Positions 9,396-44,539 of a stretch of DNA of 64,000 nucleotides are shown here, in pieces. The DNA is from Bacteroides ovatus (lineage in GTDB: Bacteria; Bacteroidota; Bacteroidia; Bacteroidales; Bacteroidaceae): assembly GCF_001314995.1 (NCBI RefSeq), contig NZ_CP012938.1, positions 5,704,001 to 5,768,000 on the forward strand, written 5' to 3'. Position 1 is the stretch's first letter; every line of letters starts with the position of its first letter. The translations under genes were made by a program, and so were the position numbers. A model generated the notes under the pieces. That model was not told the origin of the DNA. It saw only the letters and a list, made by a program, of their open reading frames with translations, and made no database searches.

Positions 9396-11477
9396 TTAAT
9401 ATCCCGGATTCTGCATTGCTTTCTTTTCTTCATTGCTTAGTGCAGAACCATTTGAATTGGTGATACCGTCCAAGAAGGCTTGGGGGATCGGACGATAGTA
9501 ATGTTTCTCCGATTTGAATTCGCCAAGACCTCTGCTGGCACCGTCGTTGAATTTATGCCAGCGGGCGTCTAACGTCTTGGTACGTGCCAGATCTTCCCAG
9601 CGTTGCAATTCGCCACAAAGCTCACGGGTACGTTCATTTAATAGGAAGCACATCATTTTGTCAGCATTGGATGTACATCCCAGTTCGTTGTAGATAGGAG
9701 TGTCGACTGTAGAGTTATAAACGTCTGCCACACTATTTAATTTCATCGTAGTTTTGGTAGAAGCAGTAGTCTCCTGTTCGATATTGTTTGACTCATAATA
9801 GGTGTTTTCTTCCCAGTAAATAGCACCTTCGGAGGAGTGACCGCCTCCTTTCCCGGAACAATAAGGATTATTCTTATAAGCTTGTCCACCATCTACGTTC
9901 TTACTACGGTCTTCACCAGTTTTATAACCGGCACGTTCACGTAGTTTGTTCATCCATTCGACAGCTTTGTCATAATTGGCTTCACCTTTACGAATATATG
10001 CTTCGGCAACCATTAGTACATCATCTGCCGAACGGGCGATGATAGCATCGCGAGTACCGAATTGAGATGCGATGGAAACACGATAACCATCACGGAATTT
10101 AGATAAAGCTACTGAACGCTTGTGAGGTATGATATCGTAATAATTACCTGTTTTCTCATTTATATTCCAGCTGTGTTCCTGTCCTTTGAAATAGCGTACA
10201 TATGTATACGTGTTACACATTTTTCCATCTTTCAAAACAGTATATGCCGGAGCGTTGGGATATTTCTCATAGCGATTGTCTCCCGGGTCATTCACGATGT
10301 ATTTCATACCGAGTTCACCTCCACTGAAACGTTTGTCACCTTCTTTTACACCTGCCGGAGCGTATGGCATATCTTCTGCTGTCCAGGTGGGAGCACTTTT
10401 GGTTTCGTTGGCTCCATAACAGGTGATGAATGATTTCCAGAAACGAGAGTCATTGACACGGTCAAATACCTGCATGGTATACTCTGTAGCACTTACGTAT
10501 GAGAATTCACGTCCTCCGGAGATGTCACGTTTACATCCACCTATATCATTACCTTGGTATACGGCCGGATAATAAAGATGCATCTGGTTTCCATAACGTC
10601 CCCATGTTGATTCATCATTAGAGAATTGAGCTGCTAGAATCACTTCACTTACTTTTTCATTGGCTCCGTTCGGCTGTTCATAGTCCCAAAGTTCTACATA
10701 ATCATTACACAACGGATGTGCGTCTACAACTTCCGAACCATATTGAATAACAGCATCGAGGTCGGATGCTATATAATTACTATTCCAATCGCTGTACAAT
10801 TCGGAGGCACGGAATAAATGTGCTTTTGCAAGGAAATGGGCAGCAGCATATTTGTTAATTCGTCCGATTGATTCACCTTTATCCGGAAGTAGTCTGTAGG
10901 CTTCTCCAAAATCAGATATAACCTGTGTGTATATTTCTTCAGCAGAATTCCGTGTAAAATATGTTTCCGCGCTTGTAGACGGAACTAATTTCAACGGCAC
11001 ACCACCAAATTGCTTCACTAATTCGAAATAAGCATAGGCTCTTAGAAAGTGTGCTTCTCCCAAGCGTGTGTTGTATGTAGGTGAACTTTGGTTATAATAT
11101 TGAGGTATGTTTTGGATCAATATGTTTGCGGGTTCAACCAGTCCGTAGTAATTGTCCCAGATAGGTTGGTTAGCGGCATTTTCAGATGAATTTAAATCTT
11201 GACTATAGTGATTCCATGCTGGAATAACATTATTAGCATCAGTAAATTCATCTACTCCCATGTTGTAGCACTGAATCCCCCATATATAGTTGAATTTGAA
11301 TTTCAGTTTCTGATAGGCTCCAGTCACTAATTCATCAAGACCTTCTTGTGTCTTAAAGCGGTCGGTACTATATTGAGTTGTTAAATTCTCATCAAGGAAA
11401 GATTCACTGCACGAAGTGATCGAGCTTCCTGTTATGCTGGCTATTAAAGCAGCAAATAATATTCTATTTAATTTCAT
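9396..11477 (-). CDS. susD: SusD-like surface glycan-binding lipoprotein (pair 1)
   Basis: Outer-membrane lipoprotein that caps the SusC transporter and captures oligosaccharides. The signal ends in the lipobox SITSC (Cys 23), followed by SESFLDENL, the usual SusD beginning. The N-terminal TPR-like region contains AHFLRAYAYFELVKQFGGVPL, a SusD hallmark, and the C-terminal RagB/SusD part contains LNERTRELCGELQRWEDLARTK. It ends with YRPIPQAFLDG and a final NPGY. Length 693 aa is in the upper normal range. Its gene lies 24 nt after the SusC gene on the minus strand. It is the counterpart of SusD proteins 2 and 3 across the recombinase island. Confidence 0.95.
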   Translation of the reverse strand: MKLNRILFAALIASITGSSITSCSESFLDENLTTQYSTDRFKTQEGLDELVTGAYQKLKFKFNYIWGIQCYNMGVDEFTDANNVIPAWNHYSQDLNSSENAANQPIWDNYYGLVEPANILIQNIPQYYNQSSPTYNTRLGEAHFLRAYAYFELVKQFGGVPLKLVPSTSAETYFTRNSAEEIYTQVISDFGEAYRLLPDKGESIGRINKYAAAHFLAKAHLFRASELYSDWNSNYIASDLDAVIQYGSEVVDAHPLCNDYVELWDYEQPNGANEKVSEVILAAQFSNDESTWGRYGNQMHLYYPAVYQGNDIGGCKRDISGGREFSYVSATEYTMQVFDRVNDSRFWKSFITCYGANETKSAPTWTAEDMPYAPAGVKEGDKRFSGGELGMKYIVNDPGDNRYEKYPNAPAYTVLKDGKMCNTYTYVRYFKGQEHSWNINEKTGNYYDIIPHKRSVALSKFRDGYRVSIASQFGTRDAIIARSADDVLMVAEAYIRKGEANYDKAVEWMNKLRERAGYKTGEDRSKNVDGGQAYKNNPYCSGKGGGHSSEGAIYWEENTYYESNNIEQETTASTKTTMKLNSVADVYNSTVDTPIYNELGCTSNADKMMCFLLNERTRELCGELQRWEDLARTKTLDARWHKFNDGASRGLGEFKSEKHYYRPIPQAFLDGITNSNGSALSNEEKKAMQNPGY

Positions 11478-11501: not shown

Positions 11502-14500
11502 TTAGAATCCGATGTTGACACCTATTACAAAACTCTTCAAAGTGGTAGGTGAACCAAATGTTTTGGTATTATTGTCATAATTTACCAAGTCTGTATCCAA
11601 AAAGTCACATGCTTTATAGATATTGAATGGGTTCATGGCTTGAACATATAGCTTCAAATTATTGATACCCAAGTTCTTTAATTGTTGTGGGGTAAAGTTA
11701 TAACCCAATGAGATATTACGAACTTTGATGTATGAGCCATCCTGATAGTTCATTGCGCTGTTAAAGGCATCGGCTCCTTCACCGTTGGAACCGGGTGAAT
11801 AGTATTTTGCATTCTCATTTGTACCGGCTACCCAATAGTCTATTTTACGCTGCATATAGCGACCGTCAAGAGTAACAGCTCCCTGTGGAACAGTAAATCC
11901 CCAACGTGATAAAATAAAGAAGGATAGCTCAAAATTCTTATAGCTGAAAGTGTTACTCCATCCACCTGTCCAGCGTGGACGTGTGTGACCTACAATTTTT
12001 TTATCGTCATTGGCATCTATTGTATCATCATTATTTAAATCTTTCACTTTGATTTGTCCCGGTTTACGTCCGTATTTGGCAGCTTCTTCGGCTTCTTCTG
12101 TTTTCCAGATGCCATCATATACCCAGTCGTAATAAACACCGATTTCCTCACCGACAAACCATTTATTGTTCACATCTTCTGTTCTACCATTAGACAATTC
12201 GTCGATTCTGTTTCTATCCATTGACCATGTTAAAGTAGTGCTCCACGAAAAATCTTTTGTTTGTATAGGTATTGCATTTACTTGTAGGTCAATACCATAT
12301 CCGGATGTTTTACCTACATTGGCATAAGTAGAAACATAACCCGTTAGTGAAGGAATTGACATTTCTAGTAACAAATCATCAGTTTTCGTTTTGTATGCAT
12401 CGATACTACCAGTAAGTCGGTTATTAAAGAAACCATAGTCAACACCGACATTGTATTGTGTAGTTCTTTCCCAGCCTAGAGTTGGATTAGCCATTTTGGC
12501 GGGTTCCTTCTGTGAAGGATCTGAAGGTACATAGCCCAAGGATGACTCATTCTGTCCCCAGTTATAGTATAAGCCTGTGATAGCGCCTTTAGTTGCATAT
12601 GCTTTGATTGCCGCATTACCTGTAACACCCATACCTATACGAAGTTTCAACTGATTCAGCCAACTGATGTCTTTCAGGAAATCTTCCTGATCCATTCTCC
12701 ATGCGATAGCAGCAGAAGGGAAACTTGCCCATTTGTGCCCTTCGGCTAATTGAGAGGCGCCGTCCCAACGCATAGATGCTGTCAATAAGTACTTATCTTT
12801 ATAACCATAGTTTAGACGAATCATATAAGATGCCATTTGAGTCTCGGTCAGACCTGTGCCAAAAGAGTTTAGTGTACCGGCAGATCCTATATTATACCAG
12901 AGCTCATCTGATGAGGCTACATTAGTAGCTCTCATATCTCCCATCTCGTAATGGTAGGCAGAAGCGGATTGCATCAATGTCATGCCTAAATTATGTTGAC
13001 CCAGGGCTTTGTTATAATAGATCAGGTTATCCAATGTCCATGCACGTTTTTGTTCGTTCTTGTATTGTGCGCCATTGTTACCATCTCCATTAATACCATC
13101 TGCTGCATTAGCGACTCCTAAAGTGTAGAATTGGAATTCAGGACCAAACTGAAGACGATAAGATAAGCCTTCCAGTGGTTTCCAGATTTTACCGAAATCA
13201 ATTTGCGAATACAAACTGGCAGAAGCACGGAAAGTGCGGCGTTGGTTGGTGTTGTAGTCTAATTCACGAATAGGGTTGATGATATTTACATCCCCACTCG
13301 GATAACGGACATATTCACCGTTTTCGTCATAAGGTACTGTCCACGGAATCATACTTCTTAATGCGCTATAGAAATCACCCGAACCGGTTACAGACTTGGA
13401 GAAACTATATCCATAGTCTTGAGTGGAATAAGATGCATTAATTGAAGATCCCATTTTGAACCAATTGACAGGAGTCACATCAAATGAGGTTTTTAACGTA
13501 TAACGTTCATATGCTTGCCCTGGTTGTGTACCTTTCTGATCCAAATAACCGAATGAGGCATAGCCTTGGAATTTGTCAGACCCTCCGGATGCACTTAAGG
13601 TATGTTCGTGAGTGATCCCCGTCTGTTTACCGTGCGAAGCCCAGTCATATGATCCTACTAAAGATGGATCGTAGACTCCATTTACCCATGCTTTTTCGAT
13701 GTTTTTCCATGAAGCAGTTACGCTACCAAATGCAGCTTTATCGGCTTCATAAGTTGGAGTGGCAGAAGCATAAGAACCTGCATTGTATTTGGCTAAGCGG
13801 GCATAATCCAACCATTCGGCGGCAGACATCATTTCTGTAACATCGTGTAGCGTTTCAAAAGTGACAGTACCGGAATAGTTTAGGGTCACTTTACCTTCTT
13901 TTCCTTTTTTGGTAGTTACAAGAATCACACCGTTGGCACCACGTGAGCCATAAATAGCTGTGGCTGAAGCATCTTTTAAAATGTCAATAGCTTCAATGTC
14001 GGAAGGATTGATATTTTCAATGCCTCCATTTTGAATTACCATACCGTCTACCACATACAGTGGACCCTGTTCCGCATTAATAGAGCGTTGTCCACGAATA
14101 TTAATGTTGCCCACCTCTCCGGGACGCTGACTGGATGTAATATCTACACCGGCTGTTTTACCTTGCATCCCTTCTAGTGCATTTCTTACAGGCATTGCTT
14201 TCAGTTCTTTTTCACCTATGCGAGCCATAGCACCGGTTACGTCACTTTTTTTCTGTACTCCATAGCCTACAACTACTACTTCGTCTAAGGTCTCGGTATC
14301 TTCTTGAAGAGTAATTTTAAAGTTGGTATTTCCTGCTACGGATACTTCTTGTTTTTTATATCCTATATAAGTGATAGTGATTGTACCTTTGGTTGGTACA
14401 TTGGAAAGAGAAAACTTGCCATTTAAATCAGTAATTGTACCATTAGTAGTACCATTAACCAACACACTGGCACCAATAACCGGTTCTCCGGTAAAATCTG

Positions 14501-14633
14501 TAACTGTGCCCGAAATTGTCTTATTCTGGGCATAAGATTCTACTATTAAAAAGGAGAACAAAGTGAGAAGAAATAGCCGTCGGATAGTATCCTTATAGGC
14601 ATACAGGTGATTACCTTTTTGGTTGCTTTTCAT
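11502..14633 (-). CDS. susC: SusC-like TonB-dependent transporter (pair 1)
   Basis: Outer-membrane TonB-dependent importer of oligosaccharides (1043 aa). A signal peptide ends at SYAQ (about residue 36), then a carboxypeptidase-D-like domain (ISGTVTDFTGEPVIGASV), the TonB box region (ETLDEVVVVGYG), a plug (LYVVDGMVIQNGG, SDIEAIDILKDASATAIYG, RGANGVILVTTKKG) and a beta-barrel ending in an aromatic residue (VIGVNIGF). The start codon lies 186 nt from the inner-facing 38-bp inverted repeat of the recombinase island, and no canonical TAnnTTTG box was found in that leader. This suggests that its transcription starts in or across the repeat and may be phase variable. Confidence 0.96.
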   Translation of the reverse strand: MKSNQKGNHLYAYKDTIRRLFLLTLFSFLIVESYAQNKTISGTVTDFTGEPVIGASVLVNGTTNGTITDLNGKFSLSNVPTKGTITITYIGYKKQEVSVAGNTNFKITLQEDTETLDEVVVVGYGVQKKSDVTGAMARIGEKELKAMPVRNALEGMQGKTAGVDITSSQRPGEVGNINIRGQRSINAEQGPLYVVDGMVIQNGGIENINPSDIEAIDILKDASATAIYGSRGANGVILVTTKKGKEGKVTLNYSGTVTFETLHDVTEMMSAAEWLDYARLAKYNAGSYASATPTYEADKAAFGSVTASWKNIEKAWVNGVYDPSLVGSYDWASHGKQTGITHEHTLSASGGSDKFQGYASFGYLDQKGTQPGQAYERYTLKTSFDVTPVNWFKMGSSINASYSTQDYGYSFSKSVTGSGDFYSALRSMIPWTVPYDENGEYVRYPSGDVNIINPIRELDYNTNQRRTFRASASLYSQIDFGKIWKPLEGLSYRLQFGPEFQFYTLGVANAADGINGDGNNGAQYKNEQKRAWTLDNLIYYNKALGQHNLGMTLMQSASAYHYEMGDMRATNVASSDELWYNIGSAGTLNSFGTGLTETQMASYMIRLNYGYKDKYLLTASMRWDGASQLAEGHKWASFPSAAIAWRMDQEDFLKDISWLNQLKLRIGMGVTGNAAIKAYATKGAITGLYYNWGQNESSLGYVPSDPSQKEPAKMANPTLGWERTTQYNVGVDYGFFNNRLTGSIDAYKTKTDDLLLEMSIPSLTGYVSTYANVGKTSGYGIDLQVNAIPIQTKDFSWSTTLTWSMDRNRIDELSNGRTEDVNNKWFVGEEIGVYYDWVYDGIWKTEEAEEAAKYGRKPGQIKVKDLNNDDTIDANDDKKIVGHTRPRWTGGWSNTFSYKNFELSFFILSRWGFTVPQGAVTLDGRYMQRKIDYWVAGTNENAKYYSPGSNGEGADAFNSAMNYQDGSYIKVRNISLGYNFTPQQLKNLGINNLKLYVQAMNPFNIYKACDFLDTDLVNYDNNTKTFGSPTTLKSFVIGVNIGF

Positions 14634-14819
14634 ACTTTAATTATTAAGTTATAAATATTGGTTTATAGATCCTTTATTGTTGATTTATCTTTTTATCCTC
14701 TAATGAAGACTCTTTGTTTCTTTTTATATGGATATTCCTGTAACGTAGTACTTTATAGAGGTTTAGTAGTATAATATATTGTATGATATTAATATATTTA
14801 CATAGCGTATTTATTATAG

Positions 14820-14857
14820 AGTTAAACAAAAGTTAGATTCTCTTTTTAAACATAACT
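14820..14857 (-). repeat. Left copy of the 38-bp inverted repeat flanking the recombinase gene (putative inversion site)
   Basis: Begins AGTTAAACAAAAGTTAGATT and ends AAACATAACT. It is an exact reverse complement, over all 38 positions, of 16526-16563; identity stops abruptly on both sides. Read towards the SusC gene it contains TAACTTTTG, a near-match to the Bacteroides -7 box with one extra base. Confidence 0.9.
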
Positions 14858-14973
14858 ACCTGCGCATCAAACGACTACATACAGCTAGCAATCAATTGAG
14901 GATAAGATTTGAACAATTAGTACCATTAATATCTTTTTTACCTATTATGAGTTATCCGGTATGCGAATCTTTC

Positions 14974-15063
14974 TTCGTTCCACTATAGTTATCTTTGCGT
15001 TTGACTATAGTTATCCGCAAGGGTAACTATAGTGTACTTTGCGGATAACTATAGTGGAACGAA
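14974..15063. repeat. Array of four ACTATAGTTA motifs forming nested inverted repeats
   Basis: TTCGTTCCACTATAGTTATC (14974-14993) is a perfect 20-nt inverted repeat of 15044-15063. Inside, CTATAGTTATCCGCAA (15004-15019) is a perfect inverted repeat of 15039-15054, and a fourth, inverted copy (TAACTATAGTG) lies at 15024-15034. Two left arms therefore compete for the same right arm. It sits just after the recombinase stop codon, so it could end that transcript before SusC; it could also be a protein-binding or recombination site. Confidence 0.8.
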
Positions 15064-15136
15064 AAAAGGATAGCGATCGGAATGGAATCGATTAGCAAAA
15101 GAAGGAACTAAAAATAGCAGTGAAAAACTATCTATA

Positions 15137-16315
15137 CTATAGCAATTGGTCAAGTACGGCACGGAACACCTTATCGGCATGTTCTTGCATAATCTTAATA
15201 TAATTAAAGATAGGACGGTTATTTTTCATACTGTGTCCGATACAGTATTCTATTTTTTCAATTTGAATGCCTAAATCATATCCGTGTTGTGCAAATGTCT
15301 TTCGGGCGGAATAGTAAGTAACCTTTTTCTTTACCCCCGAAAGTTCTGTTACCTTATTTATATGTCGGAAGACTAAACTATATATTTGTTTATAAGATGA
15401 ATATTTACCAAACTGCAAATGCCCATTTCTCGACATATATTTATCTATGAGCACTTTTGCTTCAGGCTGCAAAGTAAATACAATTTCATTTTCTCCCTTC
15501 TTGCTATTACGTGTTTTGTGACGCACATAACGCATATCGTTCTTATTTTTAAAATCATATACTAATAAATCTCTCAGGTTGATACCGCCTAAATAATAGG
15601 TAAGCATAAAAATATCTCTCACCATGGATAAAGAAGGCTTTAAAAGCCGGACATCAAGTATTCTCTTCAGTTCATCTATTGACAAATCAAGTTCCCGCAC
15701 ATTACTTGCCGGCATCTTAAAGAGGACAAAAGGATGAATGGAGTAAGATACATAATTCATCTTACCGGCATAATTTAATATCACCTTTATCAAAGTCAGA
15801 TATATTCTGATAGTTGTATCTGCCAGATTCTCCTCGTGAAGAACTTTGGCAAATTCTTGGATATGTATAGGTGTCAATTGAATTAAAGGAAAATCCCCTT
15901 TCATATATTTGACTAATCTTTCGGAAGCTATCTTATAAAGTTTATAAGATTTCTCCCGCTCTTCTCCTTTCATGAAATTCATGTATTCTTTTGCAACAGC
16001 TTGAAAGGTTATACCTTTTTTCTTTTGTTCATAAGTAATTATACGTATAAGCTCGGTACATGAAATTGCTGGTAAATAGCTGATCGATGTAATAATTTCT
16101 TCATACTCATTGATTAGTTTCCGAAGACAAGCATTCATATTCGCTGCATTCTCATGCCTTACTACTCGACCATTTTTTAGTTGACTGGCAGAATCCAAAG
16201 TAAATTGGGTAGATATATATCTGGTTTGAGAATGATGTGCTACGGCTATCCTTATTCGATGTCTGCCATTTGATAATTTTTTAGTTGGAACAACTACAAT
16301 TGAAAAATTCGCCAT
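15137..16315 (-). CDS. Tyrosine recombinase (site-specific integrase/invertase family)
   Basis: Catalyses strand exchange at short DNA sites through a tyrosine nucleophile. I start it at the ATG at 16315 (MANFSIVVVPTKKLSNGRHR), a typical Bacteroidetes integrase beginning, rather than at 16450; this gives 392 aa. An N-terminal arm/SAM-like domain (about 100-190) precedes the catalytic domain with R248 (INLRDL), K267 (VRHKTR), R338 (TYYSARKTFAQHG; the usual HxxR His is Tyr, as in many Bacteroidetes enzymes), H361 (CIGHS) and nucleophile Y372 (FNYIKI). The gene is completely enclosed by 38-bp perfect inverted repeats between two divergent SusC operons. This fits a DNA invertase of phase variation rather than an integrase of a mobile element, since no other mobility genes are present. 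Confidence 0.92.
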   Translation of the reverse strand: MANFSIVVVPTKKLSNGRHRIRIAVAHHSQTRYISTQFTLDSASQLKNGRVVRHENAANMNACLRKLINEYEEIITSISYLPAISCTELIRIITYEQKKKGITFQAVAKEYMNFMKGEEREKSYKLYKIASERLVKYMKGDFPLIQLTPIHIQEFAKVLHEENLADTTIRIYLTLIKVILNYAGKMNYVSYSIHPFVLFKMPASNVRELDLSIDELKRILDVRLLKPSLSMVRDIFMLTYYLGGINLRDLLVYDFKNKNDMRYVRHKTRNSKKGENEIVFTLQPEAKVLIDKYMSRNGHLQFGKYSSYKQIYSLVFRHINKVTELSGVKKKVTYYSARKTFAQHGYDLGIQIEKIEYCIGHSMKNNRPIFNYIKIMQEHADKVFRAVLDQLL

Positions 16316-16714
16316 ATCATTTTTAGGTTTATAAATTACTATTTTCCATACAATAAAATAGAAACAAAAAGGTTCATAGTCCTTAGGAACTAATCGAAAA
16401 TCGCTCCCACAGCATGGAATATCGTGCAAAAGACGGTATTTTCCATGCATTTGTACGATTCTGCATTGCTATATCTTGATTAAGTCGTTATGTTTGCAAC
16501 ACTTTTTCACAGGTAGAGTGTGAAAAGTTATGTTTAAAAAGAGAATCTAACTTTTGTTTAACTTAACAGATATAACTAATGAATATGGAAAACAACAAAA
16601 AAAAGGCTTCATTTATTTCAATTGCTGGTTGGAAAAGAATGCAGCCATTGTCTTTTTTACTTTACGACGATTTTACTAATCAACAAAAATATGTTTAACT
16701 TTAAAAAACATGGT
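16316..16714. other. 399-bp gene-free region upstream of recombinase and fimbrillin operon
   Basis: Contains the upstream region of the recombinase gene (16316-16525), the right 38-bp inverted repeat (16526-16563) and a 151-nt leader of the fimbrillin/SusC operon. An imperfect hairpin (ACTTTTTCACA with TGTGAAAAGT, 16501-16528) abuts the inner edge of the repeat. Reading frames extending upstream from 16315 and 16715 begin with unlikely starts and were not accepted as coding. Confidence 0.7.
16526..16563 (+). repeat. Right copy of the 38-bp inverted repeat (putative inversion site)
   Basis: Begins AGTTATGTTTAAAAAGAGAA and ends CTTTTGTTTAACT. Exact reverse complement of 14820-14857. The TAACTTTTG part faces the fimbrillin/SusC operon, 151 nt before its first start codon. 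No canonical TAnnTTTG box is seen between the repeat and that start. Confidence 0.9.
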
Positions 16715-17728
16715 ATGAAAAAAAACTATGTCACAACTGCTGTTGCCTTACTACTTTTAGCAGGATGTAGCAACGATATTAAAGAAACTGATATTCAGTT
16801 TACCGGTGATACGGGAGCGAAAGTTTCTTTTAGTGCAGTAATAAACAATCATGAGGCTAGCAATCTTGTTACAAGAGCTACGGAAACAAACTGGGAGGCA
16901 GAAGACTCGGTAGGAATCACTTGTGGTACGGAACAAGTGAATATTCATTACAAATACAAGGGCAATGGTCTTTTTGCAGCAAAAGGAGGAAATGCAGAAG
17001 AAATTTGGGTATTAGGTTCCGGAGAGTATGATGTAGTGGCATACGCTCCATTTTCTGGTACATCAGGTGAAGAACAACCTGCATTAGAAGTGACTACAGC
17101 TAGTGAAAATCAAGCTACAGCAGAAGAACGTGCGAAGATAGATTTTCTTTTTGCCAAAGGGAAGGCTACATCACAAACCCCGAACGTGACATTAGCATTC
17201 AATCATGTGATGAGTCGTATTAGATTGGAGTTTCAAGCTGGCGAAGGTGTGGACTTGGCAGATATAACTTGTTATCTTATTGGGCTTAAGAATAATGGTA
17301 CATTTAATCCTAAAACAGGGGAGACAACAGTCAGTGAAGACCCTGTTACGGATAAAGATGATATTTATTGGGATAAAATAGGAGAGCAGGATAATTATAC
17401 AGTACAAGCTATTTTACTGCCACAGAAGGTGCAAGGCAAAGTAACTATCCAAGCTAGAATGAACGGTTATCTTTATGAAGCCGAGTTTGCTAACTTGACA
17501 GAATTGAAATCAGGATTTTCTTATAATTACATCATCAAGACAAATAAATACGAGGACAATAATTATGTGTTGACAATTACAGAACAAACGCAAATAATAG
17601 GATGGGAGGATGAAAACCACGATCCTATAACATCCGACCCGAGTATAGCTGAAACTGGAACAGAGATAACTAATCCTAGTTGGAATATTACAGAAGAAAC
17701 CGTAACTCCACAGCCTGTTGTGAAGTGA
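16715..17728 (+). CDS. Fimbrillin-family lipoprotein
   Basis: Surface lipoprotein of the fimbrillin-like (Mfa2/FimB-related) class that is widespread in Bacteroides. In this context it may act as an extra glycan-binding protein for the SusC/D pairs that follow. Start chosen at 16715 because MKKNYVTTAVALLLLAGCSN gives a clean lipobox (LLAGC); an upstream extension to 16622 would begin with TTG and bury the signal. Typical features are RATETNWEAEDSVGITCG, VVAYAPFSG, FAKGKATSQTPNVTLAFNHVMSRI (split here: FAKGKATSQT, then FNHVMSRI) and a late GFSYNYIIK. It is the first gene of the right operon, 151 nt downstream of the right inverted repeat. Family assignment is by pattern; ligand unknown. Confidence 0.8.
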   Translation: MKKNYVTTAVALLLLAGCSNDIKETDIQFTGDTGAKVSFSAVINNHEASNLVTRATETNWEAEDSVGITCGTEQVNIHYKYKGNGLFAAKGGNAEEIWVLGSGEYDVVAYAPFSGTSGEEQPALEVTTASENQATAEERAKIDFLFAKGKATSQTPNVTLAFNHVMSRIRLEFQAGEGVDLADITCYLIGLKNNGTFNPKTGETTVSEDPVTDKDDIYWDKIGEQDNYTVQAILLPQKVQGKVTIQARMNGYLYEAEFANLTELKSGFSYNYIIKTNKYEDNNYVLTITEQTQIIGWEDENHDPITSDPSIAETGTEITNPSWNITEETVTPQPVVK

Positions 17729-17773
17729 TCTGTTTACCAATCTAATATAGATAAAAATGCTAAAAATATAAAC

Positions 17774-19399
17774 ATGAGATTTATGAAAATATATAATTAT
17801 ATATCAATGCTTTTTCTGGCTGGCGCAGCCATAGTTGCGTCTTGCTCGCAAAATGAAGAACTCACCGGAGAAACACCGGATTCTTTGCAGGGATTTCAGA
17901 TTAGTGTGTCTGATGAAGGATTTATGGACGAAAGTGGTAAGACACGTGCTACAGAGAATGGATATACTACCCGATTTTCTAACGGAGATGCTATCGGTAT
18001 ATTTGCGGTAAGAGGAGAAACGGTGGTAGAGGATATCAAGAATCGGAAATTCACACTGACAGATGGCTATTGGGAATTGACTGATGGAGGGGATCCTATT
18101 GAATACAAAGGTTCACAATTTCAGCGGATGACTTTTTATGCATACTATCCGTATAATGCGAATGTGACTTTTGATCCGACGAAGGTGGATCCTTTTGAAA
18201 CATACGTCAACAATTGGAAAATAGGCAGTGAACAAAATGAAGGAAATTATACACAATATGATTTGATGACGAGTACGGGTAGTGTTCAGGGGGATCGTTT
18301 GAAAGGACAGATCGCTTTTACTATGCAACATCGGATGGCTCTTGCGGTAGTGAAGATGCCTAATTTGACCTATAGCTTTACAAATGGCGGTATAGATGAT
18401 TATTTGTTACCATTAACAGCCGGTTCGTTTACAGTGAACAATACTCAAGCAACTCCTTATTATCAGGAAAGTACGGATACATACCGTTTCTTGGTTAATC
18501 CGAAGAAGGAATTCTCAATTAAGGGTACTTATTCTGGAGTAAGTGAGATGGAATATGAAGCTAAAGGTACGCTGGAAGGAGGAACGGCGAAAATGTATAC
18601 CATCGAAGATAAAAGTAAAATCAACCATACTTTGCAGGTAGGAGACTATTTTTGTGCAGATGGAAAAATAGTTTCAGTAGATGCGGAAACGGTGCCGGAG
18701 AATGTGATTGGTATTGTATGTTATGTAGGAAATTCACAACCCAGTGTAACACATACTGAACTCTATTCAGCAGAAGTTGATGCTTTGCGTCGCGATTTCC
18801 CTGCATGTACGCACGGTATAGTGCTATCTATTAAGAATTCTGTGGTAAAAGATAGTGAACAAAATGATGTTGCTTTGAAAATGTTCCATTCAAGTAAGTC
18901 CGGTTATTATTCAGACTGGTTTACTTCAGATGAGAATTGGGCAAACAAGTTTGTAGGTTGTAACACAGAGAAGGATGTTAACAAGAATGATGCTTCATTG
19001 GTTTTCCCAGCACTAATGGGATACAATAATACACAGTTACTTACTATGTGTTACGAAGGTATGGGTAGTCCTTCTACTTGCGACCATGCTTATGCGTATA
19101 TCAAGGCTTATCGTGAAGCGGAAGCTATTCCGGCAAATGTGACTCCTTGGTATTTGCCCTCTATAATGTGTTGGGATACAGTCGCTAAGAATTTGAGTGT
19201 TATTAACCGTTGTCTCAAGAATGTAAATGGTGATGAGATGACCTCTGTCGAGTCAGGAACTAACAGTGGACACTATTGGAGTAGCACACAGCGTTCTCCA
19301 GCCAACCAATGGACACACGGTATGGCTGGTGGAAGATATCACATAATTTGTGAACGTGATTCGCGTGCCGGTTATTTCCGTATGATGCTTGCATTCTAA
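17774..19399 (+). CDS. Fimbrillin-family lipoprotein with C-terminal YWSST-type domain (541 aa)
   Basis: Surface lipoprotein: signal with lipobox IVASC near residue 33 (start at 17774 or 17783 both possible), then a fimbrillin-like domain (RFSNGDAIGIFAVRG; FYAYYPYNANVTF; MQHRMALAVVKMP). Residues about 280-541 form a second domain with VGDYFCADGKIVSVDAE, CTHGIVLSIKNS and a late GHYWSSTQRSP, ending in a beta-rich LAF tail. The same two-domain plan occurs in the 534-aa protein at 53170-54774, so the two are paralogues in separate operons. It lies between a shorter fimbrillin-like gene and SusC pair 2, the place where surface glycan-binding proteins are often encoded. Function in glycan binding is inference. 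Confidence 0.75.
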   Translation: MRFMKIYNYISMLFLAGAAIVASCSQNEELTGETPDSLQGFQISVSDEGFMDESGKTRATENGYTTRFSNGDAIGIFAVRGETVVEDIKNRKFTLTDGYWELTDGGDPIEYKGSQFQRMTFYAYYPYNANVTFDPTKVDPFETYVNNWKIGSEQNEGNYTQYDLMTSTGSVQGDRLKGQIAFTMQHRMALAVVKMPNLTYSFTNGGIDDYLLPLTAGSFTVNNTQATPYYQESTDTYRFLVNPKKEFSIKGTYSGVSEMEYEAKGTLEGGTAKMYTIEDKSKINHTLQVGDYFCADGKIVSVDAETVPENVIGIVCYVGNSQPSVTHTELYSAEVDALRRDFPACTHGIVLSIKNSVVKDSEQNDVALKMFHSSKSGYYSDWFTSDENWANKFVGCNTEKDVNKNDASLVFPALMGYNNTQLLTMCYEGMGSPSTCDHAYAYIKAYREAEAIPANVTPWYLPSIMCWDTVAKNLSVINRCLKNVNGDEMTSVESGTNSGHYWSSTQRSPANQWTHGMAGGRYHIICERDSRAGYFRMMLAF

Positions 19400-19458: not shown

Positions 19459-22400
19459 ATGAATAAGAAAAACTTTATAAAGGGGACAACCTTACCTGTC
19501 GCTCTGTTTTTCACTATAGCAACTTTTGCACCTGCATGGGGATTGCAAACAGCTTCGGCAGCCATCGAAGTTGTACAGCAGCAAAGTACTATAAAAGGAA
19601 CAGTAGTAGATAGCCAAGGCGAACCGATAATTGGAGCAAGTGTACTTGCGGAAGGAACATCTAATGGTACAATTACCGATATTGACGGTGTATTTAGAAT
19701 AAATGTACGTCCCGGTGCGAAATTGAAAGTATCTTTTATAGGTTATACCGATAAAAAAGTAGTAGCGAAAAATGACATGAAAGTCATTCTGGTAGAGGAT
19801 GTGACAGCACTTGAAGAGGTGGAAATCGTAGCTTATGGTACGCAGAAGAAAGTGACCATGACAGGAGCTATCGCTAGTGTGAAGGGAGAAGAATTGACCC
19901 GTGTATCTGTAGGTTCGGTTTCCAATGTATTAGGAGGGCAGATGACAGGTTTGACTACCGTACAATATTCCGGTGAGCCGGGAGCGGATGCCGCTGAAAT
20001 TTTTATTCGTGGTAAAGCTACTTGGGAAAATTCTTCACCGTTAATTCAGGTAGACGGTGTGGATCGTGAAAGTATGAGTGATATCGACCCGAATGAAATT
20101 GAATCCATTTCTATCTTGAAAGATGCTTCGGCAACAGCCGTATTTGGTATTCGTGGAGCAAATGGGGTCATTTTGATTACAACTAAACGAGGAAAGGAAG
20201 GAAAGGCGAAAATTTCGTTTACTACTTCTGCTTCTGTATTGATGCCTACAAAAATGGTAGAACAGGCAAGTTCCTATGACTATGCCCGTTTTCATAATCA
20301 AATGATGTCCGGTGATGGCAAATCTGCCTTATTTAGTGATGGCGTGATTCAAAAATTTGCAGATGGTTCCGATCCTATTCGTTTCCCAAATATACAATGG
20401 GCTGACTATATTATGAAAAGCTCTACGCTTCAGAGCCAGCATAATCTGAACATCTCGGGAGGAACAGATAAAGTACGTTATTTCATCTCTGCAGGTGCTT
20501 ATACGCAAGGAGGACTTTTTAGTGAGTTTGATCTTCCTTATAATTTAAGCTATCAGTACCGTCGGTTTAACTATCGTACAAACTTGGATATGGATGTCAC
20601 TAAAACGACTACTTTGTCATTCAATATTAGTGGTAATGTGAATAATTCAGATCAACCGCGTACGAGTCAGGGATCTTCCGGATTGATTAAAAATATGTAT
20701 TATGCTACTCCTTTCTCCAGTCCGGGAATCATAGATGGAAAATTGGTAAATTCGAGCGATGAGACTTATTCAGACGGACTGAAATTACCATTTACAGGAG
20801 GTACAGGTATGGGATATTATGGAAATGGGTTCAGCCAGACCAGCAACAATTCGCTGAATGTGGATGTGATTCTGGATCAAAAAATGGACTTCTTGACTAA
20901 AGGACTTTCTTTTAAAGTGAAGGGATCTTATAACAGCTCGTTTACAGTTAATAAAGTCGGTTCTGGTGGGTCTATTGCTACATACACTCCTGTATTGATG
21001 GATGACGGTAGTATTGCTTATCGTAAGTTTGGAGAGAATACAGATGTGAAGTATTCGTATACTACAGGCAAAGCACGTAATTGGTATATGGAAGCCAGCT
21101 TTAATTATAATCGTACTTTTGGTGATCATACGGTGACAGCCTTAGTTTTGTATAATCAACAGAAAGAGTATTATCCGAAATTATATTCGGACATTCCTCA
21201 TGGATATGTCGGATTAGTCGGACGTGTCACTTATGATTGGAAGAGCCGCTATATGGCAGAGTTTAATGTGGGTTATAACGGTTCGGAAAACTTTGCGTCC
21301 GATTTGCGCTTTTCTTATTTCCCGGCTGGTTCTATAGGTTGGGTGATGAGTGAAGAGAAGTTTTTCCGTCCTTTGAAGTCGGTGGTTAGCTTCTTGAAAT
21401 TACGTGCCAGTGTCGGTTTGGTAGGTAACGATAATATTGGAGGATCGCGGTTTATGTATATGGCTGATCCATATAATGTCGGTTTAGGTGACTTGGCAAA
21501 TCGTGTAACGGCAAGTGGAGGAGCAACTAACGCCTGGGGATATGGATTCGGAACAGATAATGGTACTGTTAGTCTGGGTGCGCGTGAGGTAGCTAAGAAT
21601 AACCCTGCTGTGACATGGGAAAAAGCTCTGAAACGGAACTATGGTGTTGATATTAACTTCCTTGATGACCGTCTGAAAACAACCTTTGAATATTATAAAG
21701 AACGTCGTAATGACATCCTTTTGCGTGACGGTACAGCTCCGGGAATGTTAGGGTTCATTACTCCCTATTCAAATTTAGGAAGTGTAGACAGTTGGGGCTG
21801 GGAACTTTCTTTAAAATGGAACGATAAGATTGGCGATAATTTCCGTTATTGGGCGGGTATTAACCTTTCTTATAATCAGAATGAGATTCTTGAAAAGAAG
21901 GAAGCACCGCAGAATAATTTATATCAATATCAGAAGGGACACCGTATCGGTTCGCGTAGTCAATATGTTTTCTGGCGCTTCTATGATGAGGATACACCTG
22001 CGCTATATGAGCAGACATTTAATCGTCCGTTCCCCACTCACGAGAGTATTCTTCAAAATGGAGATGCAGTATATGTTGACTTGAATGGTGACCGTAAGAT
22101 TGATGCAAATGATGCAAGTTATGACTATGGCTTTACAGACGATCCTGAATATATGCTAGGTATTAATTTAGGATTCAGTTGGAAGAATCTGGAAATAAGT
22201 ACTCAATGGACAGGGGCCTGGAATGTAAGCCGTATGATTTCGGATGTATTTCGTCAGCCGTTCTATTCATCTTCCAATAGCGAGCAGGGAGGATTGTTGG
22301 CATACCATCTGGATCATACATGGACACCGGAAAATCCGTCACAATCTTCGGAGTATCCGAGAGCTACCATTGATAATGCAAAGAATAATTATGCTACCTC

Positions 22401-22638
22401 CACTTTATATGAGAAAGATGCCAAATACTTGCGTTTGAAAACTCTTCAGGTGGCATACAATTTTCACTTCCCATTAATGAAGAAACTTGGACTGAATACA
22501 TGTCAGTTGGCTTTTGCAGGATATAATTTGTGGACGATTACACCTTATTTGTGGGGTGATCCGGAGGCAAGAGCTACTAATGCACCTTCTTATCCATTGT
22601 CCAAGACTTATACGTTGAGCTTGAAATTAGGATTCTAA
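19459..22638 (+). CDS. susC: SusC-like TonB-dependent transporter (pair 2)
   Basis: Outer-membrane oligosaccharide importer (1059 aa). Signal region up to about residue 34, a carboxypeptidase-D-like domain (IKGTVVDSQGEPIIGASV), TonB box-like segment (TALEEVEIVAYGTQKK), plug (LIQVDGVDRESMSDIDPNEI, then SILKDASATAVFGIRGANG) and a beta-barrel ending LSLKLGF. It follows two fimbrillin-type genes and precedes its SusD by 21 nt. Its plug sequence differs clearly from pair 1, suggesting a different ligand or oligosaccharide size. As a member of the right operon it would be controlled by the putative inversion switch. Confidence 0.96.
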   Translation: MNKKNFIKGTTLPVALFFTIATFAPAWGLQTASAAIEVVQQQSTIKGTVVDSQGEPIIGASVLAEGTSNGTITDIDGVFRINVRPGAKLKVSFIGYTDKKVVAKNDMKVILVEDVTALEEVEIVAYGTQKKVTMTGAIASVKGEELTRVSVGSVSNVLGGQMTGLTTVQYSGEPGADAAEIFIRGKATWENSSPLIQVDGVDRESMSDIDPNEIESISILKDASATAVFGIRGANGVILITTKRGKEGKAKISFTTSASVLMPTKMVEQASSYDYARFHNQMMSGDGKSALFSDGVIQKFADGSDPIRFPNIQWADYIMKSSTLQSQHNLNISGGTDKVRYFISAGAYTQGGLFSEFDLPYNLSYQYRRFNYRTNLDMDVTKTTTLSFNISGNVNNSDQPRTSQGSSGLIKNMYYATPFSSPGIIDGKLVNSSDETYSDGLKLPFTGGTGMGYYGNGFSQTSNNSLNVDVILDQKMDFLTKGLSFKVKGSYNSSFTVNKVGSGGSIATYTPVLMDDGSIAYRKFGENTDVKYSYTTGKARNWYMEASFNYNRTFGDHTVTALVLYNQQKEYYPKLYSDIPHGYVGLVGRVTYDWKSRYMAEFNVGYNGSENFASDLRFSYFPAGSIGWVMSEEKFFRPLKSVVSFLKLRASVGLVGNDNIGGSRFMYMADPYNVGLGDLANRVTASGGATNAWGYGFGTDNGTVSLGAREVAKNNPAVTWEKALKRNYGVDINFLDDRLKTTFEYYKERRNDILLRDGTAPGMLGFITPYSNLGSVDSWGWELSLKWNDKIGDNFRYWAGINLSYNQNEILEKKEAPQNNLYQYQKGHRIGSRSQYVFWRFYDEDTPALYEQTFNRPFPTHESILQNGDAVYVDLNGDRKIDANDASYDYGFTDDPEYMLGINLGFSWKNLEISTQWTGAWNVSRMISDVFRQPFYSSSNSEQGGLLAYHLDHTWTPENPSQSSEYPRATIDNAKNNYATSTLYEKDAKYLRLKTLQVAYNFHFPLMKKLGLNTCQLAFAGYNLWTITPYLWGDPEARATNAPSYPLSKTYTLSLKLGF

Positions 22639-22659: not shown

Positions 22660-24672
22660 ATGAAATTACAAAATAAATGGTTCATCGGTGCGATGTTGGG
22701 AGCGGCGGTTTGTTTGGTTTCCACTTCATGTGTGGACGAAATTAAATTCGGAAACTCTTTTTTGGATAAGGCACCGGGCGGAAATGCTACTATTGACACA
22801 GTGTTCAATAGTGCGGAATATACGCGCCAATTTTTGAATACCTGTTACAGTAGACAGTATTACGGATTACCTTATAATACGGACAGTAACGGTAATATTC
22901 CTGATTCTTCCAGTCCTTATTTAGGAAAGAAGGATGCGCTAACAGACTGCTGGTCACTTTATTTTAGTGACGCAACTGTATATCAGCAGTATTATTTGGG
23001 TTCTCTCAATGCCAACTATGGCACGCGTGGTAATATTTTCCCATATACACGGGAAATGGTATGGGAAGTAGTGCGCTGGTGCTGGTTGTTAATGGAAAAT
23101 ATAGATAGAGTGCCGGGCATGGATAGCACTGAAAAAACTCAGTTGGTGGCAGAAGCTAAATGCCTGATTGCGGCACGCTATTTTGATATGTTCCGTCATT
23201 ATGGAGGTCTTCCATTGTTATATGCTTCATTCACCGGTACGGAGTCAGGTTATGAAATCCCCCGTGCTACGGTAGAGGAGACTGTTAACTACATGATAAA
23301 GATGTTGGATGATGCTATCAATTCCGGTGGATTGGTGTGGGCTTATGCTGATGCCGATCTTGCCAGCAAGGCCGGACACTGGACAAAGGCCGGTGCGATG
23401 GCATTGAAATGCAAAATCTGGCAATTTGCCGCTTCTCCGTTGTTTAACGATGTCAACGGATATGCAGGAGGAAACTCAGAGGCTGAACAGCAGCATCTGG
23501 TATGGTACGGCGGCTACCATGCGGAACTTTGGGATAACTGTTTGAAGGCTTGTGAAGCATTCTTTAAAGAGCTGGAGAGTCAAGGCGGATATAGCCTGAA
23601 TAAGGCTTCGGAAGAAACACCGGAACAGTATCGGCAGGCATATCGTATGGGATATATTCGTCAGAACAGCAAGGAGGTCTTGCATTCTGTCCGCACGAAT
23701 ATGTCGGACGCTTTCAACTCAAGTTCTTATATGTGGCATTCCTGGGCTGTTCCGTCACTTTGTCGTACCGAATATCCGCCTACACAGGAATATGTGGAGA
23801 TGTTCCCATGGGCCGACGGTACTCCGTTTGACTGGAAAAAGACGGAAACAGAAGGTAAGTTGGATGCAATGTTCCTGACCGGAACATTCAAAAATGGAGA
23901 ACAACTATTGTCGGAAATCGTATTAACCCGTGATCCTCGTCTGTATGAGCATTGCATGGTAAACGGATTGCCGAAGATGTTAGACTGGAGTGCAGGAACA
24001 ATGTCCGGTTTACCTTATGAATTGTGGGTCGGAGGATACGATGAAGGACAAAATGCTGCACTTGAATCAGGTAACTATGCGACTGGTTATAAAAATATGA
24101 AATATTATTTGGGAACAGAGTACCAACGTCAGTATACGCATTGGGTATATCTTCGTTTATCTGACATTTATTTAACTTATGCAGAGGCCTTGCTTCAAGC
24201 CAAGAATGATCACCGGGGTGCTATTGACCAAATGAATATAGTACGTGCCCGCGTAGGATTGAAGAAAGATTTGGCGGAGTGTGTTACAGATAAGAATTTA
24301 CTTTCTGACAAAGCAGCCTTATTGGAAGAATTGCTGTGCGAGCGTGTTCGGGAATTGGGGCTTGAAGATAGCCGTTACTTTGATCTTGTCCGTTACAAGC
24401 GTGCCGATCGTTTCGAGAAGCGCCTGCACGGGTTGCTCGCCTATCGTTTGGATGATACCGGTAATCGTATAACGGGAAATGCTAAATGGAATGAAGGAGA
24501 TAAGAACAAGGGGGCATTGCAGCCTACTCGTTTTGAATATGAAAGGTTTGAGTTATCCAAGCCGGTCCGTCGGTGGTGGACATACGGATTTGATCCCAAA
24601 TGGTATCTTTCTCCATTCCCGCAAACGGAAATTAACAAAGGATATGGATTGATTCAGAATCCGGGTTGGTAA
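22660..24672 (+). CDS. susD: SusD-like surface glycan-binding lipoprotein (pair 2)
   Basis: Partner of the preceding SusC. Lipobox STSC (Cys 24) followed by VDEIKFGNSFLDKAPGG. Helical repeats include EAKCLIAARYFDMFRHYGGL and the C-terminal part contains LSDIYLTYAEALLQAKNDH, LLCERVRELGLEDSRYFDLV and a final QNPGW. Length 670 aa. A 38-nt gap separates it from the next SusC gene. Confidence 0.95.
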   Translation: MKLQNKWFIGAMLGAAVCLVSTSCVDEIKFGNSFLDKAPGGNATIDTVFNSAEYTRQFLNTCYSRQYYGLPYNTDSNGNIPDSSSPYLGKKDALTDCWSLYFSDATVYQQYYLGSLNANYGTRGNIFPYTREMVWEVVRWCWLLMENIDRVPGMDSTEKTQLVAEAKCLIAARYFDMFRHYGGLPLLYASFTGTESGYEIPRATVEETVNYMIKMLDDAINSGGLVWAYADADLASKAGHWTKAGAMALKCKIWQFAASPLFNDVNGYAGGNSEAEQQHLVWYGGYHAELWDNCLKACEAFFKELESQGGYSLNKASEETPEQYRQAYRMGYIRQNSKEVLHSVRTNMSDAFNSSSYMWHSWAVPSLCRTEYPPTQEYVEMFPWADGTPFDWKKTETEGKLDAMFLTGTFKNGEQLLSEIVLTRDPRLYEHCMVNGLPKMLDWSAGTMSGLPYELWVGGYDEGQNAALESGNYATGYKNMKYYLGTEYQRQYTHWVYLRLSDIYLTYAEALLQAKNDHRGAIDQMNIVRARVGLKKDLAECVTDKNLLSDKAALLEELLCERVRELGLEDSRYFDLVRYKRADRFEKRLHGLLAYRLDDTGNRITGNAKWNEGDKNKGALQPTRFEYERFELSKPVRRWWTYGFDPKWYLSPFPQTEINKGYGLIQNPGW

Positions 24673-24709: not shown

Positions 24710-27700
24710 TTGATTTATATGAGAAAAAATAAGATTCTGATACTGGCTTTACTGGTTTGTTTGAGCATTCCGGTCAGAGCACAGAATACAGACAACAACA
24801 TTATAGGTATTGTTGTTGATAAATCGGGAAACCCAGTCTATGGAGCGTCCGTTAATGTGGAAGGTGGCGCAGTGGAGACCCGGGTTGAAACTGATAAAGA
24901 TGGTAAATTCGAGATTGCGGTCGAGAAAGGACAACGTTTGAGTGTCGTTTCTGTCGACAAAGGCTCTACCACAGTTGTGGCAAAGACTGATGGTCCGATG
25001 ACTATTGTGATGGGATATGCAGCTCAGACTATTGATGTGGGAGCTAACCGGACATTCAGTCGTCATGAATCAACAGCAGCTGTTTCTACCACCTATAACG
25101 AAGAGTTTAATAAGCGGTCTTCCCGGAATATATCCAATTCTTTATATGGATATGGATTGGGCCTTACTACTTTGCAGAATGCGGCCAGTACCGGGTTAAT
25201 GGCAGATCCTACCTTTTATGTACGTGGTTTGCAGAGCTTGTCAAGTAGTACACCGCTTGTGCTGGTTGACGGTTTGGAACGAGACATGAGCTTGGTGAGC
25301 CCAGAAGAAGTAGAATCCGTTTCCATCCTGAAAGATGCCGCGGCTGTGGCATTGTACGGATACAAAGGGGTGAACGGTGCGATCTTGATTACTACAAAGC
25401 GTGGTAAGTACAAAACAAAAGAGATAACTTTTACGTATGATCATATCATTAACACTCAGTCTCGACGTCCGGAATTTGTAGATGCAGCTACGTATGCTTC
25501 TGCAGTGAATGAAGCGCGTGGATATGAAGGTTTGGGAGCTCGGTATACTCCGGAAGAAGTCGATGCTTTCCGTAATGGAGTAGGTAGTGGAGGGGCTTCC
25601 CGTATGTACCCTTATCTCTATCCTAATGTGAACTGGATTGATGAAACCTTTAAAGACAGAGGAGTTTCTAATAAATATACGATCGAATTCCGTGGGGGAG
25701 GAGCAAAGTTCCGCTACTATACTATGGCGAATTTATTAACAGACAAAGGGTTTATCAAAACCCCGAATGCAAATGACGGATATTCTACACAGAATATGTA
25801 TTCACGTGCTAATTTGCGTACAAATCTGGATATTGATTTAACCGCCACTACCAAATTGAAGTTGAATCTTCTCGGTACCTTGTCCGAATCTCGGATTCCG
25901 GGGGCTTCGGTTAACCTATGGGATATGATTTATTCGATTCCTTCTGCAGCTTTTCCGGTTCGTACGGAAGATGACAGTTGGGGAGGAAGTACTACTTGGG
26001 CGGGAACATCGAATCCTGTCGCACAATCGCAGGGAGCTGCTTATTCTAAAGGACACTCTCGCAGTTTGTTTGCCAACCTTACCTTGTCACAAGATTTATC
26101 TGGTTTGCTGAAAGGATTGGGAGCAAACTTTCGTTTAGCTTATGACAACTATTCCAATATTCTGGAAGACCATAGCAAGACTTATACGTATGCCGGTTAT
26201 GCAACAAGCTGGACAACTAACGGTCCGTTTTATACTGCCATTTCAGGTGGCGAATCCAGTGAAATGGGTTCGGGTGCAGGTATTGACAACTGGGCGCGCC
26301 AATTTAACTTTGCAGGTAGTGTCGATTACAATCGCTCGTTTCGGAAGTGGGATGTGTATTCTCAATTCAAATGGGATTATGAGTATCGTGATTCATACGG
26401 ATTGAACACTACTATTTATCGGCAAAATGTATCCTGGTATAATCATGTAGGTTTCTCTAATCGCTATTATTTGGATCTGGCATTGGTTGGCTCGGCCTCC
26501 AGTTTATTGGCACCGGGGCATAAATGGGCTTTCTCGCCTACCATTTCTGCTGCTTGGGTGCTTTCGGAAGAAAAATGGTTGAAAGATGTGTCTTGGGTGA
26601 ACTTCCTGAAATTGCGCGCTTCGTTTGGAGTGATCAATGTTGATTATCTGCCTAAAGACGGAAGTACTACCGTATATGACTATTGGGATCAGATTTATAC
26701 GACTACCGGTACGCAATATAAGTTTAACAGTAGTTACGACTCTGAATTCGGAAGTACTATTATCGGGCGCCTGGCAACTGCTAATTCGACACATGAGAAA
26801 GCGTATAAATACAATGTTGGTGTTGATGCCGTGTTGTTCAATGGACTGGACGTGACGGCAGAAGGCTATTACCAACGGAGAAAAGATATTTGGGTCTCTT
26901 CCGAAGGAAAATATACCGATGTGTTGGGCGTAGATGCTCCGTTCGAGAATGCCGGAATCGTTGATAGCTATGGCGTGGAACTAGGACTTAACTATACGAA
27001 ACGGTTAGGAGATGTAGTGTTCAACCTTGGCGGTAATTTTGCTTGGAATAAGAATGAAATTAAGGAACAACTGGAAGAACCGCGTTTGTATAAGAATCTT
27101 GTGCAAACAGGAAATCGGTTGGGACAAGTATATGGAATGGTAGCTGAAGGTTTCTTCAAAGATAAAGAAGATATAGCAAACAGCCTTCCGCAAAACTTTA
27201 GTACGGTAGTGCCGGGAGACATAAAATATAAAGATGTGAATGGAGACGGAATCATTGATGCCAATGATAAAACAGCTATCGGTTATAGTACGACGGCTCC
27301 GGAAATTTATTATTCTTTCCATTTGGGAGCCGAATGGAAAGGGATTGGAGTAGATGTAATGTTTCAGGGAACAGGTAACTATTCTGCTGTCTTGAATACG
27401 AAGAGTATGTTTTGGCCGTTGATAAATAATACGACACTTTCTACTCATTATTATGAGAATCGTTGGACACCGGAAAATCAAAATGCCAAATATCCTCGTT
27501 TGAGTTCACAGAGTAATGCCAATAACTATCAGGCTAATACAGTTTGGTTGGCGGACCGGTCATTCTTGAAGTTACGTAACGCGGAGGTGTATTACAGATT
27601 TCCGGAAGAATGGATGAAGAAGACTAAGATATTGGGGAGTGCCAAGTTATATGTCAGAGGAACAGACTTGTTCTGTTCAGATCATATTGATGTGACAGAT

Positions 27701-44449: not shown

Positions 44450-44476
44450 TTTTTTAGTAATTAGGTGAGCCGTTTC

Positions 44477-44508
44477 TTTCATTATCTCAACTATCTTGAC
44501 TATTTTTG
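44477..44508 (+). promoter_or_regulatory. Promoter of the HTCS gene
   Basis: TTTC at 44477-44480, spacer 20, TATTTTTG at 44501-44508, 32 nt before the chosen start codon. No operator-like core is seen here, so the regulator seems not to be under its own control. Confidence 0.55.
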
Positions 44509-44539
44509 TCCAACATTTATTATTAATCTTGGAATCTAT

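Follow-up and report, generated by a model that had tools for sequence, protein, structure and literature searches.

In Bacteroides fragilis, DNA inversion at SusC/SusD clusters is carried out by Tsr0667, which acts at three such clusters (shufflon type) and at nine other regions according to the accessible text of PMC4747536, and promoter inversion by Mpi and Tsr19 is established in the same species in the available parts of PMC4747536 and PMC12632263, the gene for Tsr19/BF2766 lying near, not within, the inverted DNA (PMC4747536). Excerpts from further studies describe recombinase genes that are often upstream of invertible promoters (PMC13114119), TonB-receptor/SusD and fimbrillin genes enriched beside some inverton groups of gut strains, with some genes intersecting invertons (PMC11892184), invertible regions near SusC/SusD that differ in orientation in disease (PMC10939037), and, in Bacteroides xylanisolvens, nanopore recombination hotspots near a TonB receptor, SusD genes and a site-specific integrase (PMC8042965), one of which may be the locus treated here. 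That locus is a 1.7-kb segment at 14820-16563 of a 64,000-nucleotide stretch of the Bacteroides ovatus genome (NZ_CP012938.1, positions 5,704,001 to 5,768,000; the whole stretch is called the window below), in which inverted repeats enclose a tyrosine recombinase gene between two SusC/SusD operons. Judged by sequence comparison, the segment is very probably a site-specifically invertible promoter selector between the two operons. No description of the window locus was found in the literature searched, and published surveys may already list it.

In the mechanism that we propose, the enclosed recombinase would join sites in the two inverted arms, with the crossover within TAACTTTTGTTTAA, and recombination would flip the 1.7-kb segment. 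From the recombinase-5' end, a single regulated promoter would fire outward across the arm into the operon that this end faces, and a cell would transcribe either the fimbrillin/SusC2/D2/C3/D3/PL11 operon (the state of this assembly) or SusC1/D1, never both, from the segment promoter. We infer catalysis by the enclosed recombinase, activity of the promoter, reversibility in this strain and different glycan fragments for the two importer sets. A tyrosine recombinase, inverted repeats and SusC/SusD importers switched by inversion would be shared with the Tsr0667 system; here, in contrast, the recombinase rides in one segment with one genomic site pair, the genes would stay in place while the promoter moves, and the 20-nt site does not recur, at up to two mismatches, in many distant regions. 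Tsr0667 is itself a tyrosine recombinase, and its site motif, AGTYYYN4GDACT, is absent from the arm on both strands. With the Mpi/Tsr19 capsule and exopolysaccharide promoters the proposed switch has in common an invertible promoter between inverted repeats that is ON or OFF by orientation, but those systems toggle one downstream operon, whereas the window segment faces an operon on either side; in other capsule and exopolysaccharide invertible promoters, too, the recombinase gene is a neighbour of the inverted DNA and not part of it, whereas in the window it is inside. In the Hin flagellar switch of Salmonella the invertible segment does include the recombinase gene, next to an outward promoter, but Hin is a serine recombinase that uses different sites and its promoter drives one flanking operon, as against a tyrosine recombinase and two flanking operons here. 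What would set this segment apart from known invertons is that the inverted DNA includes the recombinase, that the site pair is dedicated and that the output goes to two operons.

The segment is bounded by a perfect 38-bp inverted repeat, with its arms separated by 1668 nt. The left arm (14820..14857, no strand; recombinase-3' end, SusC1 side) contains the conserved site GTTAAACAAAAGTT at 14821-14834, and the right arm (16526..16563, no strand; recombinase-5' end, fimbrillin side) contains AACTTTTGTTTAAC at 16549-16562. At the scan settings used, this is the second-longest inverted repeat of the window, the longest being a GH88 gene pair; rough arithmetic puts the chance of such a perfect 38-mer pair in 64 kb at no more than 1e-11, and a chance origin is ruled out by the length of the repeat together with its conservation. 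The single-contig genome of 6,472,489 bp holds no further copy of the 38-bp arm sequence with up to three mismatches. Between the arms, the sole open reading frame (ORF) of at least 90 amino acids (aa) is the tyrosine recombinase (15137-16450). The repeat scan and the ORF list therefore bear out the original prediction of a perfect 38-bp repeat enclosing only a recombinase gene, and it was also right that each arm faces a different operon (SusC1/D1 on the left, fimbrillin/SusC2/D2/C3/D3/PL11 on the right), at 186 nt from the SusC1 start (14633) and 151 nt from the fimbrillin start (16715). After the recombinase stop lies a palindromic element resembling a miniature inverted-repeat transposable element (core 14969..15068, within 14940-15110, no strand), made of four ACTATAGT-like units; three more copies are present in the genome (L002, L003, L008), and from its position the element could influence read-through into SusC1.

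Relatives of the recombinase were sought in 158 genomes of the genus (44/158 with a match at E <=1e-30, at 56 places), in 399 genomes of the family (11/399 at 1e-110) and in a named collection (33 loci). An inverted repeat surrounds the recombinase gene at 12 of the 30 genus loci scanned (30 of the 56 matching places) and at 12 of the 33 named loci, where a thirteenth repeat, the 18-nt one of L089, is unrelated in sequence. Without doubles, 19 distinct loci carry the module (the window, L040-L050, L054, L103-L106, L065 and L067), and they belong to Bacteroides, Phocaeicola and Mediterranea; they include B. acidifaciens (L040), B. congonensis (L042), Bacteroides sp. GM023 (L044), B. faecis (L045), B. 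oleiciplenus (L046), B. stercorirosoris (L047), P. vulgatus ATCC 8482 (L104), P. intestinalis (L106) and the metagenome-assembled genome (MAG) SIG138 of Mediterranea massiliensis (L054). The site AAC[T/A]TTTGTTTAA is present at both ends in 17 loci, and a variant, AACTTTGGTTTAA, at both ends of L105 and at the single end present on the contig of L106. An exact match to the 19-nt site occurs in 17/158 genus genomes, and to its reversed control in 0. Full-length recombinases with at most 51% identity had no such repeat at the loci examined. In a tree of 40 recombinases, from which the split genes of L050 and L054 were left out and in which long branches were flagged, a single branch separates the 17 switch members from all others (support 90/99, and 92% of 200 bootstrap trees).

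Most module loci sit between two divergent SusC/SusD operons. In L047 and L048 one side opens with a 427-aa gene and continues with PL11-like genes, while in L045 (B. faecis; also L060) each side starts with a gene for a 775-777-aa protein that matches no window protein, followed by SusC/SusD, which suggests that the module may not be tied to rhamnogalacturonan I (RG-I). One side is cut by a contig end in L067 and L106. The contig of L067, labelled as an uncultured Bacilli MAG, carries a Bacteroides-type module with SusC/SusD and is probably misbinned. In P. vulgatus ATCC 8482 (L064/L104), the susC at the promoter end is interrupted (pieces of 531 and 593 aa).

The inverted form, for which the original prediction had advised looking in related genomes, was found: the segment lies opposite with respect to matching flanks in four locus pairs, and a fifth contrast (B. 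faecis/G134) comes from a contig end. Between the window and GM023, oriented for the comparison with SusC1 at the left, 14001-14651, 14747-14850 and 16534-17800 align plus/plus, whereas 15165-16569 aligns minus (83% over 1408 bp), with the breakpoints at the arms. The segments of L047 and L048 (a MAG) are 97.8% identical and opposite to an 8.8-kb flank at 99%; their SusC-side flank is 65-77% identical near the switch and 99% further out, and the two SusC are 59% identical. L049 and L050 (G115/G112) have segments that are 68% identical and opposite, with flanks at 78-81%. For L105 and L106 (G437/G315), a 99%-identical SusC lies downstream of the recombinase-3' end in one and of the promoter end in the other, and the sequence outside the site is the same right up to it (junction-exact) in a comparison made from one flank. 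At the G134 contig end, a recombinase-3' end (84% over 141 nt) is joined to an operon 96-98% identical to the promoter-end operon of B. faecis. Two contigs of the bin G139 (L157, L158) break inside the segment, and their promoter ends, identical at 170/174 nt, are joined to two different SusC operons; no recombinase of the switch group was found in this bin. Such junctions would be expected from a population of mixed orientation, and equally from two copies or two strains.

What the segment would present to the flanking operons is a promoter at one end. An outward motif at 16466..16496 on the plus strand (TTG at 16466-16468, 20 nt, TATGTTTG at 16489-16496) points into the fimbrillin operon; read outward from the recombinase start, the stretch is ATTG-N20-TATGTTTG (16465-16496), and from the consensus we take 16466..16496 to be a Bacteroides-type promoter. 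Directly upstream is a conserved box, TTTTCCATGNNTTTGTACRATTCTNCATT (16439..16467, plus strand), a candidate activator site. Seventeen loci were scored, namely the 19 distinct loci minus L105 and L106. Counted inward from the site, a TAnnTTTG box is present at 59-62 nt at the recombinase-5' end of 16/17 and at the other end of 0/17, the chance at that distance in shuffled sequence being 0.0035 per end; near-duplicate loci make these promoter counts less independent than they appear. Two loci also have a TAnnTTTG deeper inside the segment at the other end, L054 at 575 nt and L104 at 163 nt. Promoters at both segment ends were considered and rejected for the window, whose segment has the TAnnTTTG box solely at the recombinase-5' end. 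Elsewhere in the genome the promoter box has two matches, each with three mismatches. A sigma-70-type promoter and terminator scan of 14600-16800 gave about the shuffled level, a scan of this type being uninformative for this phylum.

The proposal that both operons may take their promoter from the segment is supported, with one correction: an internal outward promoter motif is conserved at one end only, the single promoter at the recombinase-5' end would serve one operon per orientation, and the operon states should therefore be mutually exclusive. Since the promoter faces the fimbrillin operon in the window, this operon should be ON and SusC1/D1 OFF, and the GM023 assembly would represent the opposite state. 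That inversion swaps the importer set transcribed, as originally envisaged, finds support in the two orientations among relatives combined with one end-specific promoter motif.

The same promoter end also occurs without a recombinase. Promoter motif and site are fused to SusC in G006, G098 and G153 (82%, 82% and 55% identical to SusC1 in the compared region) and to the fimbrillin operon in G015 and G156 (Fim1 58%), and none of these five genomes has a recombinase of the switch group, the best matches being at 24-33%, or absent, and located elsewhere. These fixed versions (L160, L161, L162, L163 and L164; three on SusC, two on the fimbrillin operon) show the same promoter end fixed on either operon. 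In G027 the adjoining importer operons are gone, and the promoter motif, one site and recombinase fragments persist. This bears on the alternative that the segment inverts while each operon is served by a regulated promoter of its own outside the segment, in which case inversion would merely modulate expression or have no regulatory role. The window leaders, at 186 and 151 nt, have room for a promoter of another type; a motif scan, however, found TAnnTTTG in neither of them, confirming that the leaders outside the repeats lack this canonical box, and 14/17 loci have a flanking gene whose start is 15-18 nt beyond the site, on one side or on both (both in 9), so that there is no room there for an outside promoter. 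The exceptions to this spacing are the window, L044 and L045; the SusC1 leader of GM023 is long and has an apparent half of an old site beside the start codon. As the promoter end moreover persists as the operon lead-in in recombinase-less genomes, we consider outside promoters distinctly unlikely to govern the two operons.

The two arms of a locus vary together, which also supports a promoter selector. Single site changes are shared by both arms, with AACATTTG in both arms of L040 and of L041 and AACTTTGG in both arms of L105, and agreement of arms is greater within than between loci, 0/5000 re-pairings of 17 loci reaching the observed value, in a test to which locus relatedness and shared SusC 5' ends contribute. 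The length over which the arms are identical ranges from 18 bp in GM023 to 442 bp in P. vulgatus, where the match is perfect and covers the 5' ends of both SusC genes. Arms of the latter length would be long enough for homologous recombination, and Bacteroides invertases can act on distant regions (PMC4747536, PMC13114119, in the text available), so that inversion might be due to homologous recombination or to another invertase in trans, not to the enclosed recombinase. We regard this as very unlikely: recombinase and paired sites co-occur in the genus loci examined, there is no other site pair in the genome itself, and the GM023 arms are identical over just 18 bp. With up to two mismatches, the 20-nt site is found in the B. 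ovatus genome at the two arms and at one lone place, and more diverged sites would escape this search. The lone extra site, which has no nearby TAnnTTTG and precedes a 227-aa ORF matching no window protein, was rejected as a trans target.

The recombinase gene (15137..16315, minus strand, inside the segment) encodes 392 aa from the conserved start; its ORF extends to 16450, and the start is most likely at 16315 because relatives begin there. Arm-DNA-bind_5 and Phage_int_SAM_5 are above the Pfam cut-off and the catalytic Phage_integrase domain is below it. The window protein was aligned with nine switch relatives and one other relative (n=11), and R338 and the nucleophile Y372 are invariant in 11/11, with H361 in 10/11 (Gln in L055). 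By profile membership and catalytic residues, we assign the predicted segment enzyme to the tyrosine recombinases. It shares its domain layout (Arm-DNA-bind_5, Phage_int_SAM_5, catalytic), and an Asn for the first catalytic Arg, with Bacteroides phage integrases and IntDOT-like enzymes; the switch recombinases differ from these in grouping together in the tree and in lying between paired inverted sites beside importer genes. The matches to phage integrase families, and the relatives 34-42% identical in phage genomes, would also suit a mobile element, that is, an integrase with terminal inverted repeats inserted between the two operons. This is hardly credible, given that there is no cargo gene, that the same kind of place, beside importer genes, is occupied in 19 loci, that no relative was found in viral contigs and those in 27 phage and 13 plasmid records are all below 60% identity, and that the internal promoter motif points at the flanking genes and inversion separates relatives. 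An integrative mobile element was rejected on the lack of cargo or transfer genes, of copies at unrelated places and of a close viral or plasmid relative.

Several points weigh against a working promoter selector in the window. All orientation contrasts lie between species or assemblies; of the five loci with the window's two operons, four (L040-L043) have the segment oriented as in the window and L044 alone has it the other way round; the pairs L040/L041 and L042/L043 are near-duplicates, and the SusC shared by L103 and L104 sits at the same end in both. The promoter is known as a consensus match, and TAnnTTTG is missing from its usual place in L067 (the one miss among the 17), L105 and L106. 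In the window, L044 and L045 the leaders are long on either side of the segment, so that a non-canonical outside promoter is possible in these three. Identity alone does not mark the switch group, since the partial, interrupted recombinases in G077 and G147 match the window protein at 54-56% identity in C-terminal stretches and lack the repeat. In a profile alignment to XerA, Asn246 replaces the first catalytic Arg, which IntDOT-type enzymes also lack. The predicted structure of the recombinase is of moderate confidence (mean pLDDT 72.5, pTM 0.44), with the C-terminal 47 residues below 50. Finally, the recombinase is broken into two reading frames in L050 and L054, and some switches may therefore be dead.

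These split genes, together with the recombinase-less versions in relatives, the repeat element in the window segment and a SusC1 leader longer than in L040-L043, would also be expected of a once-active switch that inverted during species divergence and is now frozen, its recombinase no longer expressed or active and its orientation fixed. The window recombinase, however, is intact and can be aligned end to end with ten relatives, of which nine come from switch loci, and the arms are still identical over 38 bp, which makes a frozen state unlikely, and a promoter selector that can still invert remains the reading we favor.

A broader reading, for which we see the chances as even, would make the segment one of a family of two-way selectors, conserved and self-contained, in gut Bacteroidaceae, in which an integrase-descended recombinase lies inside the flipped segment with a single promoter and its own activator box. 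One nutrient-sensing input, probably the hybrid two-component regulator of a polysaccharide utilization locus, would be wired by orientation to one of two pectin-import surfaces, and recombinase loss would fix one choice. The candidate promoter activator is a hybrid two-component regulator in the same neighbourhood (44465..48823, plus strand), which may act on the box TTTTCCATGNNTTTGTACRATTCTNCATT. Importers are usually thought to be set by diet via regulators; here a random but heritable choice of importer would come on top of the dietary signal, so that members of one clone could come to favour different pectin fragments or expose different SusC surfaces to phages and antibodies. Compact, and with a defined site and enzyme, the module is present in B. 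stercorirosoris DSM 26884, B. oleiciplenus YIT 12058, B. faecis MAJ27 and P. vulgatus ATCC 8482.

The left operon, predicted to be OFF in the assembly orientation, consists of SusC1 (11502..14633) and SusD1 (9396..11477), both on the minus strand; its leader outside the arm (14634..14819, minus strand) is long in the window and GM023 and 15 nt in L040-L043. The right leader outside the arm (16564..16714, plus strand) contains a small ORF of ~39 aa, with partly similar ORFs in L040, L041 and L044 and a broken one in L042, which is possibly a relic of a SusC start. The right operon follows on the plus strand with a fimbrillin-like lipoprotein 1 (Mfa_like_1, 16715..17728) as its first gene, a fimbrillin-like protein 2 (17774..19399), SusC2 (19459..22638), SusD2 (22660..24672), SusC3 (24710..27769; its Plug-domain match is weaker than those of SusC1 and SusC2), SusD3 (27791..29512) and a rhamnogalacturonan lyase of family 11 (PL11; RGL11_C, 29593..31677). 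The PL11 gene probably belongs to one operon with the preceding genes, as suggested by strand and short gaps. The neighbourhood also encodes a second PL11, a PcRGLX-type protein, three GH88, GH43, GH42 and GH28, and these protein families support the label of a putative RG-I locus. Two of the GH88 genes (39475-40527 and 50050-51102) form a 1053-bp inverted repeat, 89% identical, with the hybrid two-component regulator, a PL11 gene and a further GH88 gene between its arms, and this pair could be a substrate for a 10-kb inversion via homologous recombination.

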